From the NCBI RefSeq assembly GCF_002252155.1, contig NZ_NEFD01000003.1, positions 186,001 to 250,000 of the forward strand: 64,000 nucleotides of DNA. Direction: 5' to 3'. Each line of letters begins with the position of its first letter. Position 1 is the stretch's first letter. Positions 43,721-47,364 of the stretch are shown here, piece after piece. The notes beneath the pieces are model-generated. The model was given only the letters and a program-made list of their open reading frames with translations, made no database searches and had not been told where the DNA came from. The stretch is from Wohlfahrtiimonas sp. G9077. GTDB lineage: Bacteria; Pseudomonadota; Gammaproteobacteria; Cardiobacteriales; Wohlfahrtiimonadaceae. The translations under genes and the position numbers were made by a program.

Positions 43721-44065
43721 ATGTTGCATTTAATCACCCATTACACGGTGCTCGCACTCAATGTTTTTTCCATCGCCATTTTGCTTGTGGGCGTCGTTAA
43801 AGCCTTTTTTGGATTCATCATCAATGAAGGCAAGGGCGGCGATCGCTTTGATGTGGCCTCTAAAAATAACCATATTAAAATCTATTTAGGCTCGTACATT
43901 TTATTGAGTTTAGAGGTGTTGATTGCCTCGGACATCATCGAAACCATCATGAATCCAAGTTTAGATGACATTTTAGTGCTTGCTGGCATTGTGGTGATTC
44001 GTACGACCATCTCTTACTTTTTAGGCAAAGAGATCGAAGTGGCAGAAAAAGAGCGCACATCTTAA
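43721..44065 (+). CDS. DUF1622 family small membrane protein
   Basis: A 114-residue protein with three hydrophobic segments and the DUF1622 pattern (IKIYLGSYILLSLEVLIASD, IVVIRTTISYFLGKEIE). Function unknown. AGGAGG lies 4 nt before the ATG at 43721. Co-transcription with the SLC13-like permease suggests a related role, but that is inference. Confidence 0.85.
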   Translation: MLHLITHYTVLALNVFSIAILLVGVVKAFFGFIINEGKGGDRFDVASKNNHIKIYLGSYILLSLEVLIASDIIETIMNPSLDDILVLAGIVVIRTTISYFLGKEIEVAEKERTS

Positions 44066-44082
44066 GTCAAAGTGATCCTAGG

Positions 44083-44105
44083 TTATCCACATCTTCTGTG
44101 GATAA
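44083..44105. promoter_or_regulatory. Two perfect inverted DnaA boxes
   Basis: TTATCCACA (44083-44091) and TGTGGATAA (44097-44105) both match TTATNCACA exactly and face each other across 5 bp, with one further base pair of symmetry. They lie in the non-coding stretch between the DUF1622 gene and rsmH. A likely DnaA binding site for gene control or replication. Confidence 0.7.
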
Positions 44106-44130
44106 CTTTGTGAAAAACTCATGATTAATG

Positions 44131-44164
44131 CCATAAAACCCCATTGAAAAGTGGGGTTTTATGG
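44131..44164 (+). terminator. Hairpin terminator after the DUF1622 gene
   Basis: Perfect 13-bp stem CCATAAAACCCCA/TGGGGTTTTATGG with an 8-nt loop. The T-run lies inside the 3' arm, so it may be symmetric and bidirectional. Confidence 0.75.
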
Positions 44165-44230
44165 TGTGTTTTTTTAAAAAATATTTTAAATTCAAATAGA
44201 TGAATTATGAGCGCTCAAAGAGCGAAGCAT

Positions 44231-44239
44231 TGTGCATAA
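44231..44239 (-). promoter_or_regulatory. Third DnaA box
   Basis: TGTGCATAA, the complement of TTATGCACA, an exact TTATNCACA match. An AT-rich stretch (about 44168-44211) separates it from the inverted pair. Confidence 0.6.
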
Positions 44240-44295
44240 CGTGTGAAAACAAGTGCGCAATAATGATGCAGCAAAGGCAGCGCTTGGAAATAAGA

Positions 44296-44330
44296 GTGGA
44301 AAAAAGTGGGGAAAAGTGGTAAAAGTATGG
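44296..44330 (+). promoter_or_regulatory. Tandem GTGG array, MraZ-operator-like, before rsmH
   Basis: GTGG occurs at 44296, 44306 and 44316, exactly 10 bp apart, each followed by an A-rich half-turn, with a weaker copy (TATGG) near 44326. MraZ binds direct repeats of GTGG/TGGG-type boxes on one helix face in the promoter of mraZ-dcw operons. Here the array precedes rsmH, and mraZ itself is absent. Confidence 0.6.
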
Positions 44331-44359
44331 CATAAAACTATATTTGGATCGATTTTTTC

Positions 44360-45286
44360 ATGTCAGAGTTTCAGCACGTTTCCGTTCTTTTAGATGAGGC
44401 GATTAATGCGCTCAATATTCAACCTGCCGGCGTCTACGTGGATGGGACATTTGGTCGCGGCGGTCATTCCTCTGAAATCCTCAAGCGTTTGGCAACAGGA
44501 CACTTGATCAGCATTGATCGTGATCCAATGGCACAAGCCTGTGCCAAAGAGCGTTTTAAAGGGGCTGAAAATTTCACATTTTTTGCCGGCTGCATGAGTG
44601 ACATCAAAGCGGCGGTGGCTTCTGCACATTTTGAAAAAGTCGATGGCGTATTGTTAGACATTGGTGTGTCATCGCCACAATTAGACGATGCTGAGCGCGG
44701 ATTTAGCTTCATGAAAGATGGTCCGCTTGACATGCGCATGGATCCAACCTCTGGCGTCAGTGCCGCGCAATGGGTGGCAGAGAGTGATTTTGCCACCATG
44801 GCCAGCGTGTTTCGTGAATTTGGGGAAGAGCGTTTTGCCGGTAAAATTGCTGGTCACATCATTAAATGCCGTGAGCTTGCACCGATTGAAACCACCCATC
44901 AATTGGCCGACATCATCTCAGAGGCTGTGCCTTTTAAAGATAAGCATAAACACCCGGCAACACGTGTATTTCAAGCCATTCGCATTGCCGTCAATGAAGA
45001 GCTGACGGAGCTGAGCCAAACCTTAAATGCCGCCTATGATTTATTAAATCCTGGGGGTCGTTTAGTGGTGATCAGCTTCCATTCATTAGAAGATCGCATC
45101 GTGAAAAACTTTATGAATCACTATGCTAAACCTAAAGATTTATTGCCTGATTTACCTGTGGCGCAGTTTGTGTCTGAGCCCACGCTTAAATTAATCGGCA
45201 AACCTGTCAAAGCAAGCGATGAAGAGTCGCGTCATAATCCTCGGGCCAGAAGTGCCATCATGCGTATAGCGGAGAAATTACCGTGA
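44360..45286 (+). CDS. rsmH: 16S rRNA (cytosine(1402)-N(4))-methyltransferase RsmH (MraW)
   Basis: A 308-residue methyltransferase. It has the SAM-binding YVDGTFGRGGHS motif near residue 26, GVLLDIGVSSPQLD and the C-terminal ISFHSLEDRIVK. It methylates C1402 of 16S rRNA. It is first in the local division/cell-wall cluster, where mraZ would normally precede it. Confidence 0.97.
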   Translation: MSEFQHVSVLLDEAINALNIQPAGVYVDGTFGRGGHSSEILKRLATGHLISIDRDPMAQACAKERFKGAENFTFFAGCMSDIKAAVASAHFEKVDGVLLDIGVSSPQLDDAERGFSFMKDGPLDMRMDPTSGVSAAQWVAESDFATMASVFREFGEERFAGKIAGHIIKCRELAPIETTHQLADIISEAVPFKDKHKHPATRVFQAIRIAVNEELTELSQTLNAAYDLLNPGGRLVVISFHSLEDRIVKNFMNHYAKPKDLLPDLPVAQFVSEPTLKLIGKPVKASDEESRHNPRARSAIMRIAEKLP

Positions 45287-45606
45287 ATATCACAAAAAGT
45301 TTGGTGATTTTGTGTGGTTTAGCGCTCATTGCTGTGGGAATGTTAAAAATTCACACCACACAAGAGCATCGTCATTTATGGCATCAGTACGAAAAAGCAC
45401 TGACGCAAAAAATGGACTACGATACAGAGTGGAACAAACTCAAGTTAGAAGAGAGCATGTTGATTACAGCGGTGTTGATGGACAAAACGATCCGTGATCG
45501 CTTGAACATGGTATTACCTAAACAAGAGAGCATCGTCTATGTGACAGAGAAAAAGACTGCAACATTGGTGAGTGCTCAAAATGATAAAGATCGTTACATT
45601 CAATAA
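45283..45606 (+). CDS. ftsL: Cell division protein FtsL
   Basis: A 107-residue bitopic protein: short cytoplasmic tail, one membrane helix (about residues 7-23) and a periplasmic coiled-coil. FtsL joins FtsB and FtsQ to activate septal synthesis. The GTG start overlaps the rsmH stop (GTGA). Identification rests on topology, size and position between rsmH and ftsI. Confidence 0.9.
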   Translation: MNITKSLVILCGLALIAVGMLKIHTTQEHRHLWHQYEKALTQKMDYDTEWNKLKLEESMLITAVLMDKTIRDRLNMVLPKQESIVYVTEKKTATLVSAQNDKDRYIQ

Positions 45607-45609
45607 TTC

Positions 45610-47364
45610 ATGATGCGTCAAACTCCAAAGAAGCGTCGCTCGAAAAAGGCGAAAAGCAAACGGCCAGTGTTGCCCGGTCAAAATTACCGTCGTGTTTTCG
45701 TGCTGGGTATTTTTTATCTATTAGCGATCGCATTGATGATCAGCGCCTTTGATTTACAGATTCTCAATCAGCAATTTTTGCAATCAGAGAGCAATAACCG
45801 CGTTTTACGCACCCAAAACATTCCTGCGGTGAGAGGGGCAATCATGGATCGCAACCATGAGTCTTTGGCCATCTCGACGGAAGTTTATTCCATTTGGGCA
45901 GACCCCAAAATTTTATTGCCTTATGCGGAGTATTTGCCAGATTTAGCCAAAGCCCTCGACATGAAGGAAAAGCATCTGTATGAGTTATTGACCAAGCGTG
46001 ACAATTCCCGTTTTGTGTGGTTAAAGCGCCAATTGCCGCCCCATGCAACGAATGATGTGGTCAAACTGAATTTACCGGGCGTGACCATTGAAAAAGAGTA
46101 TAAGCGTTATTATCCGGATGCGGAAGTGACCGCCCAGCTCCTTGGCTTTACGAATTCAGAAGATGTGGGTATCGAGGGAATTGAACTGACGTTTGAGGAT
46201 CACCTCAAAGGTAAAATGGGCAAAAAACAGGTGGTGAAAGATTCGGCCAACCGCATCATTGATCAGTTTAAATTGATAGAAGGGGCAGAGTCTGGTAAGA
46301 ATTTGGTGCTCACCATTGATCGACGCATTCAATTGGCCGCTTATCAAGCCCTTAAAAATGCCATCATTGAGCATAAGGCAAAAAGCGGCACAGCCATGGT
46401 GGTGGATGCTTGGACGGGCGAAGTGCTGGCATTGGTCAGTCAGCCATCGGGGAACCCCAATAATTTGCAGCACCGCATTCCTGAAATGATGAAAAACCGC
46501 GCCATTGCCGATGTCTATGAGCCAGGTTCCACCATTAAGCCTTTTGTGATTGCCCTTGGCCTTGAGTCTAAAAAATGGCGCCCAACGAGCGTTGTGCCAA
46601 CCGGTTATCAATTCATGGTGAGCGGCAATGCCATCAAAGACGTGTCTAAATCAGAATCCATGGATTTGATCACCGTACTGGTGAAGTCGAGTAATATTGG
46701 TGTGGCGCGTGTGGCTTTATCGATGCCGCCTGAAGTTTTGTGGAATTTATACAAATCCTTAGGCATTGGCCATAAAACGGGCTTAGGCATTGTCGGTGAG
46801 CAAGCAGGCCATTTGGGCAGCGTTCGCCCTTGGCAGCGCAATCAGTTTGAGCATGCCACCAAATCCTTTGGGTATGGCATCAGCTTAAATACGGCACAAT
46901 TGGCACAGATGTATTCTGTGTTTGCCAATGGTGGCGTTTATGAGCCTTTAAAAATTGTCAAAGATTTACCTGCCCAAACGGATCAACAGCGCCGCCGGAT
47001 TTTCTCAAAACAAGTGGCAGCCTCGATGGTGGGCATGCTTGAAAAAGTGATCACCAACAATCCCAACTCAAAAGCGAAGGTTCAACATTATCGCGTGGCC
47101 GGTAAATCGGGTACAGCGCGTAAAATTGAAAAAGGACGCTATAGTAATACCAAACACCGGGCATTTTTTGCAGGCTTTGGCCCCATCTCAAATCCGCGCT
47201 ATGTTGTGGTGGTGATGATTGATGAGCCTTCTGCCGGTCAATATTATGGTGGCGCGGTCGCAGCACCTGTATTTGCTGAAATTATGGGTGATACGCTGCG
47301 CATTTTGAATGTCAAACCCGATGGTTTAGCGGAGCTACCTAAACTACAAATGTTATCCCACTGA
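45610..47364 (+). CDS. ftsI: Peptidoglycan D,D-transpeptidase FtsI (PBP3)
   Basis: A 584-residue class B penicillin-binding protein: one N-terminal membrane anchor, the pedestal domain, and a transpeptidase with STIK (in EPGSTIKPF), SSN (in KSSNIGVAR) and KSGTA. It cross-links septal peptidoglycan with FtsW. Little ribosome-binding sequence is visible, so translation may rely on coupling to ftsL (3-bp gap). Confidence 0.96.
   Translation: MMRQTPKKRRSKKAKSKRPVLPGQNYRRVFVLGIFYLLAIALMISAFDLQILNQQFLQSESNNRVLRTQNIPAVRGAIMDRNHESLAISTEVYSIWADPKILLPYAEYLPDLAKALDMKEKHLYELLTKRDNSRFVWLKRQLPPHATNDVVKLNLPGVTIEKEYKRYYPDAEVTAQLLGFTNSEDVGIEGIELTFEDHLKGKMGKKQVVKDSANRIIDQFKLIEGAESGKNLVLTIDRRIQLAAYQALKNAIIEHKAKSGTAMVVDAWTGEVLALVSQPSGNPNNLQHRIPEMMKNRAIADVYEPGSTIKPFVIALGLESKKWRPTSVVPTGYQFMVSGNAIKDVSKSESMDLITVLVKSSNIGVARVALSMPPEVLWNLYKSLGIGHKTGLGIVGEQAGHLGSVRPWQRNQFEHATKSFGYGISLNTAQLAQMYSVFANGGVYEPLKIVKDLPAQTDQQRRRIFSKQVAASMVGMLEKVITNNPNSKAKVQHYRVAGKSGTARKIEKGRYSNTKHRAFFAGFGPISNPRYVVVVMIDEPSAGQYYGGAVAAPVFAEIMGDTLRILNVKPDGLAELPKLQMLSH

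Follow-up and report, generated by a model that had tools for sequence, protein, structure and literature searches.

What purpose is served by a group of DnaA boxes that lies directly in front of a bacterial division cluster? The question arises in a 64,000-nucleotide stretch of the genome of Wohlfahrtiimonas sp. G9077 (hereafter the window; the source genome is G000), where an initial annotation made from sequence alone noted three perfect 9-mer boxes within 44083–44239 and offered a DnaA-controlled division promoter, a DnaA titration site, or an origin-like element as their role. DARS sites of Escherichia coli recharge spent DnaA so that a new replication round can start. We find that two of the three boxes belong with a further one, and that these together (44083–44117) are probably the core of a DARS-type DnaA-reactivating site. 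For comparison we used six genomes of the genus (G000–G005), all sampled members of its order (G000–G031), and wider sets of 57 relatives and 229 Gammaproteobacteria.

DnaA boxes and their surroundings

The intergenic region lies between a DUF1622 gene, which ends at 44065, and rsmH, which starts at 44360 and opens a division and cell-wall cluster that includes ftsL, an ftsI-type gene, and a Mur ligase gene. It contains, in order, a facing TTATCCACA pair, a terminator, an AT-rich spacer, a lone TTATGCACA box, and three GTGG repeats. The features are as follows.

43721–44065, plus strand: gene for a DUF1622 protein (PF07784), the last gene upstream of the intergenic region
44075–44124, no strand: 50-bp block holding the entire core, identical in the nearest relative, G001
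44083–44091, plus strand: DnaA box I, TTATCCACA, exact; faces box II and aligns with box I of E. coli DARS1 and DARS2
44097–44105, minus strand: DnaA box II, TTATCCACA, exact; starts 14 bp after box I, with a 5-bp gap between them, and aligns with the E. coli cores
44109–44117, minus strand: DnaA box III, TTTTTCACA, an exact TTWTNCACA; starts 26 bp after box I
44128–44177, plus strand: intrinsic terminator of the upstream operon, an 18-pair stem (44128–44167) and then a T-tail
44231–44239, minus strand: lone TTATGCACA box, outside the core and not kept in G001
44296–44319, plus strand: three GTGG repeats (period 10 bp) directly in front of rsmH; by pattern probably MraZ boxes
44360–45286, plus strand: rsmH (mraW; PF01795, E 1e-112), opening the division and cell-wall cluster
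45283–45606, plus strand: ftsL (PF04999)
45610–47364, plus strand: gene for an ftsI-type penicillin-binding protein (PF00905, PF03717)

The three 9-mers are present as described, the two TTATCCACA boxes on opposite strands with their 5-bp gap and TTATGCACA on the minus strand. A TTWTNCACA scan adds box III, which the initial annotation lacks; it points the same way as box II, from which 3 bp separate it, so that boxes I–III have the orientation > < < and starts at 0, 14, and 26 bp. Each has 0 mismatches to TT[A/T]TNCACA, as compared to 0 or 1 per box in the E. coli cores. The original trio was therefore grouped wrongly: the box at 44109–44117 had been overlooked, and a single element that includes the 44231 box is ruled out by the loss of that box in the closest relative.

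Three exact 9-mers had been called far above chance. As to box number this fails, the window containing five TTATNCACA boxes against 3.45 expected, a number that is unremarkable because 28 of 100 shuffles reach at least five; what counts instead is the clustering, for which the statement holds. The three-box core pattern, derived partly from the window site itself, matches the window once with up to 3 mismatches and 0 of 100 window shuffles, which makes these boxes a plausible genuine DnaA site and not a product of chance. Across the whole genome there are 196 TTATNCACA matches versus 40 for the reversed control, and the facing TTATCCACA pair (gap 0–12) occurs a single time.

Match to E. coli DARS1 and DARS2

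We scanned the bioD–uvrB stretch and the stretch before mutH of E. coli K-12 MG1655 in the same way as the window. The boxes start at 208 (+), 222 (−), and 234 (−) of the scanned stretch for DARS1, and at 236 (+), 250 (−), and 262 (−) for DARS2; the 0/14/26 starts and the > < < orientation are thus identical in the window core and in both E. coli sites. The cores align without gaps, the window sharing 30 of 37 letters with DARS2 and 26 of 37 with DARS1. Primer letters in the available portion of PMC4585315 flank the DARS1 and DARS2 boxes. The accessible text of one review gives DARS1 and DARS2 equal box spacing, with box I opposite to II and III (PMC5742627); that of another describes the head-to-head box arrangement as typical of DARS and essential for function (PMC10380432); and a head-to-head AAA+ contact is described in an excerpt of a research paper (PMC8682772). 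At 44083–44117 we find both three DnaA boxes with box I opposite to II and III and a spacing equal to that of DARS1 and DARS2.

DARS1, in the bioD–uvrB gap, shares with the window core the three boxes, their orientation and starts, and an intergenic position. It is active in vitro without additional factors (PMC5742627, in the same portion) and needs a flank beyond box III (PMC4585315, likewise), whereas the likeness of the window site is one of core geometry and letters. The window core further differs in lying between the DUF1622 gene and rsmH instead of before uvrB, in having boxes closer to the consensus, and in that its activity is a prediction. DARS2, before mutH, has the same core geometry and the nearer core letters; the window site differs in its locus, in having one further exact box only (44231), and in having no IHF or Fis site nearby. 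In 43850–44400 we found neither an IHF site, with up to 1 mismatch allowed, nor an exact Fis site, by a scan that is weak, since the 780 bp around E. coli DARS2 gave three IHF-like matches (shuffle mean 0.84) and, for Fis, one palindromic site counted as two strand matches (shuffle mean 1.42). The regulatory part of DARS2 is thus not seen, and the site does not qualify as DARS2 proper; its surroundings, where no IHF or Fis site was found, more closely resemble those of DARS1, and its core letters those of DARS2. Other DnaA-binding elements are less similar. The double DnaA boxes that are ChIP-seq targets in E. coli are like boxes II and III (same direction, 3 bp apart), whereas the window core adds box I, inverted and separated from box II by 5 bp. 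datA and oriC likewise consist of DnaA boxes, outside or at the origin, but the window site has neither an IHF site nor a large box array, and the skew turn was seen on contig C10 (see below).

If the core behaves as its E. coli counterparts do, it would hold three DnaA molecules: boxes I and II would carry a head-to-head pair, and the third, on box III, would steady the DnaA of box II. ADP-DnaA bound there would shed its ADP, depart as apo-DnaA, and take up ATP; more ATP-DnaA would then be at hand when oriC, located elsewhere, next fires. We infer DnaA binding, ADP release, and a cell-cycle role by analogy with E. coli.

Conservation in the genus and family

Conservation, which the initial annotation had named as a check, is partial: the core stands before rsmH in three of the six genus genomes (G000 included, with G001 and G003), while no core was found before rsmH in G002, G004, or G005, nor at 11 rsmH loci from other genera in the family. 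G001 keeps the core in full, but has a different terminator and spacer and has lost the lone 44231 box. Identity of the 50-bp block is supportive, not decisive, because the window holds 29 identical intergenic runs of at least 40 bp (by frame list) and intergenic DNA differs at just 349 of 4387 aligned positions (8%). The 29% difference at 4-fold sites had suggested strong selection; we dropped this inference, as intergenic DNA differs by only 8% and has 29 such long identical runs.

The G003 core has two mismatches and precedes rsmH by 273 bp, as compared to 277 bp in G000; the gene upstream of it is a different one. In G002 a zero-mismatch core adjoins a trkH gene (PF02386). G000 itself has two further DARS-like cores, both also present in G001, where the trkH gene beside the first was identified by its protein start:

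G000:C9:38621–38652: core with 2 mismatches, beside a trkH gene (PF02386)
G000:C1:270433–270464: core with 3 mismatches, between a KDPG/KHG-aldolase gene and a cytidylyltransferase (kdsB-like) gene

DARS-like sites thus appear to relocate while their geometry is retained. The facing TTATCCACA pair as such is more widespread (16 of 31 genomes), at unrelated places and with gaps of 4, 5, and 6 bp. The seven pairs with a 4-bp gap all come from a single genus, where they adjoin a Ham1-family (rdgB-type) gene and further boxes, and four of the six with a 6-bp gap lie within a coding frame. We therefore ruled out the pair as a family-wide element, its places being unrelated and its gaps different; it is the 5-bp gap together with box III that marks the DARS type.

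Core geometry across the Gammaproteobacteria

A core pattern drawn from E. coli DARS1 and DARS2, the window site, and G003 retrieves, at up to 3 mismatches, 111 sites in 45 of 57 genomes, and its reversed form none. With box I shifted 3 bp further, 7 sites in 6 of the 57 genomes remain, four of them overlapping sites of the unshifted pattern (reversed control, 1). Quality among the 111 sites varies: 59 have 3 mismatches, and 35, chiefly from one sister genus, are without the TGTG of box III, which is kept by at least one site in 35 of the 57 genomes. Since the pattern was derived from E. coli DARS1 and DARS2, the window, and G003, we also left the gap free, requiring TTATNCAC, 0–30 bases, TGTGGATA, 4 bases, and TGTG, all exact, in 229 Gammaproteobacteria. 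A match was found in 106 of the 229 genomes, and among the matches listed the 5-bp gap of DARS occurs at 146 of 150 sites (two of the 146 entries being the second strand of a near-symmetric site, in G235 and G114) and in 102 of 105 genomes. One of the four exceptions is inside the G000 oriC candidate. In at least 102 of the 229 gammaproteobacterial genomes, therefore, the 0/14/26 arrangement yields candidate DARS cores.

We read 40 of these sites, one per genome in listing order (in G125 and G209 the second listed, because the first is at the edge of a contig; G050 and G052 were passed over). A mechanical frame test puts 39 of them in intergenic DNA, and the sites have 1–4 exact TTWTNCACA boxes within 400 bp, which makes them unlike origins. 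Their neighbor genes vary. Fifteen of the 40 cores are found a short way upstream of priA, a gene recognized by tblastn with the E. coli PriA protein (L245, L247–L249, L255, L256, L258, L259, L265, L266, L270, L276, L277, L282, and L283); even with 7 mismatches allowed, the 8 kb around E. coli priA gave no core match. In G024, which belongs to the order of Wohlfahrtiimonas, a two-mismatch core with a weak box III directly precedes uvrB; E. coli DARS1, in the bioD–uvrB gap, is about 420 bp before uvrB.

A 2009 paper reportedly described DARS, and its statement on conservation is known to us through the available portions of PMC4245941 and PMC10380432. According to the former, the DARS2 core is conserved in E. 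coli-related species; the latter, a 2023 review citing the 2009 paper, has DARS1- and DARS2-like sequences conserved in many proteobacterial species; and PMC8682772, as far as its text was accessible, compares seven E. coli relatives for DARS conservation. DARS-like sequences in proteobacteria are thus already known, and the window site is another candidate example. Word searches of open papers, titles, and abstract starts found no description of a DARS core before rsmH or priA. In the portions of the literature available, DARS function has so far been studied in E. coli, and conservation is detailed for seven relatives and otherwise given one line. An arrangement that picks out candidate cores in at least 102 of 229 genomes makes the age of DnaA reactivation testable, along with its dependence on Hda, IHF, and Fis and the role of genomic address. 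For G000 it replaces the “DnaA-controlled division promoter” with a sharper, assayable DARS hypothesis.

A wider reading is possible, though doubtful: DARS cores may form a class-wide relocating network in Gammaproteobacteria, fixed in their 0/14/26 spacing and changing in address (priA, uvrB, trkH, rsmH). As no Hda is detected in the order to which the window core belongs, DnaA reactivation would then predate the Hda/IHF/Fis circuit known from E. coli and be the more general of the two. The copy before the division cluster in this genus could then link recharging to the time at which that cluster is replicated.

Alternative roles for the core

The alternative that survives best, though we consider it unlikely, is transcription control, in which DnaA bound at the core would repress or activate the division cluster or alter read-through from the upstream operon. 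The core does lie between two operons and before rsmH in three genus genomes, and boxes II and III, 3 bp apart, correspond to the double box preferred by E. coli DnaA at its targets (PMC11317965, in the portion available); yet a double box by itself leaves the inverted box I and its fixed spacing unexplained, and the GTGG repeats are kept before rsmH in relatives without the core. The division promoter proposed at the outset is weakened in that the facing pair is 277 bp from the rsmH start with the terminator in between, and the box nearest the promoter is lost in G001. Because a terminator separates core and division promoter, and because relatives have their cores at other places, the location before the division cluster is probably incidental.

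Passive titration, in which a cluster of strong boxes soaks up DnaA and leaves its nucleotide unchanged, seems to us a little less plausible again. The boxes are indeed strong, two being perfect consensus and one an exact TTWTNCACA, and TTATCCACA is over-represented genome-wide (102 versus 9 for the reversed control, 100 places listed). Titration needs no fixed inverted geometry, however, and a single spacing recurs at 146 of the 150 class-wide sites listed; the initial annotation was right to take the boxes for more than chance, but their exact agreement with the DARS core geometry favors reactivation of DnaA, a role that it had not considered.

The palindrome could also act as RNA, as a 3′-end hairpin or a processing or attenuation structure of the upstream transcript, since a stable hairpin is followed by the terminator and the 115-nt fold has z = −7.56, much of the energy coming from the terminator itself. 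We regard this as very improbable: the short hairpin does not include box III, which G001 retains, the genes next to the 40 sites are varied, and arm letters are constant and loop letters variable across genomes, a contrast that is only suggestive because the search pattern fixes the arms. An origin-like element or chance clustering, for which three boxes close to an AT-rich stretch might speak, has next to no likelihood given the core pattern in 0 of 100 window shuffles and 14 TTATNCACA boxes with a GC-skew minimum at C10:110339–111004. The AT-rich stretch had been thought meltable; a melting region is ruled out, since the stretch opens with the T-tail of the intrinsic terminator (stem-loop 44128–44167; 0.8 terminator-like sites expected in shuffles).

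Replication origin, dnaA, and Hda

We reject an origin at 44083–44239 in favor of a candidate on another contig:

G000:C10:110339–111004: oriC candidate, 14 TTATNCACA boxes in 666 bp, low GC, with a turn of the cumulative GC skew

The GC-skew check suggested by the initial annotation found its turn on C10, in a profile that covers 20 kb of that contig (100–119.9 kb) and has its minimum within them. The many boxes expected of oriC are found on C10 and not at the window site, and the stretch of C10 that was profiled has the skew switch as well; TTATCCACA places also cluster on C10. On one side the candidate is flanked by a solute-binding-protein gene and a Ham1-family (rdgB-type) gene, and it is without dnaA. 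The dnaA gene is on a different contig (G000:C8:84993–86363), adjoining a type IV pilin-family gene (PF07963, ComP-like PF16732), and the closest exact TTATNCACA box within the 16 kb examined is 4.6 kb upstream of it. In one sister genus, the 4-bp-gap facing TTATCCACA pair lies in a box-rich region beside a Ham1-family gene (L177–L183, Ham1 confirmed at L177), perhaps the oriC of that genus. A word search found no open paper containing both “Wohlfahrtiimonas” and “oriC”.

Hda is a main producer of ADP-DnaA in E. coli. It was found above the cut-off in 18 of the 57 genomes and in none of the 32 genomes of the order of G000 (G000–G031); the best match in G000 is DnaA itself, and G020 has a weaker match, in a 252-aa frame. 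Many of these Hda-negative genomes have DARS-like cores nonetheless. Since Hda was not found there, the need for DnaA reactivation in this order is unproven; ADP-DnaA, if not made by Hda, must come from DnaA’s own ATPase or another system.

Likely MraZ boxes and a displaced mraZ

The GTGG triple at 44296–44319 we take to be MraZ boxes, as is likely from its pattern. The label agrees with the accessible part of PMC8475190. An exact triple precedes rsmH in 15 of 18 family genomes; of the others, G007 and G009 have an imperfect triple (by eye) and G016 is without an rsmH match. The direct repeats of an MraZ-controlled dcw promoter are thus present before the cluster, by pattern only, and mraZ is not the first cluster gene. 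All 18 family genomes have mraZ, on another contig or at least 20 kb from rsmH in all 17 with rsmH found, which rules out an mraZ beside rsmH; in G000 it is at C1:608818–609231, adjoining a glutamate racemase gene (region L055:2286–2804), with no GTGG repeat near it in the 5 kb read. From these sequences, mraZ appears to have moved out of the division cluster in this family and its boxes to have stayed in place, and MraZ may still control the cluster in trans. Five family MraZ proteins show 25–36% identity to 14 other gammaproteobacterial MraZ (locus L127, in which no frame was found, is left out), as compared to 35–88% among those 14; the family MraZ is perhaps foreign or fast-evolved.
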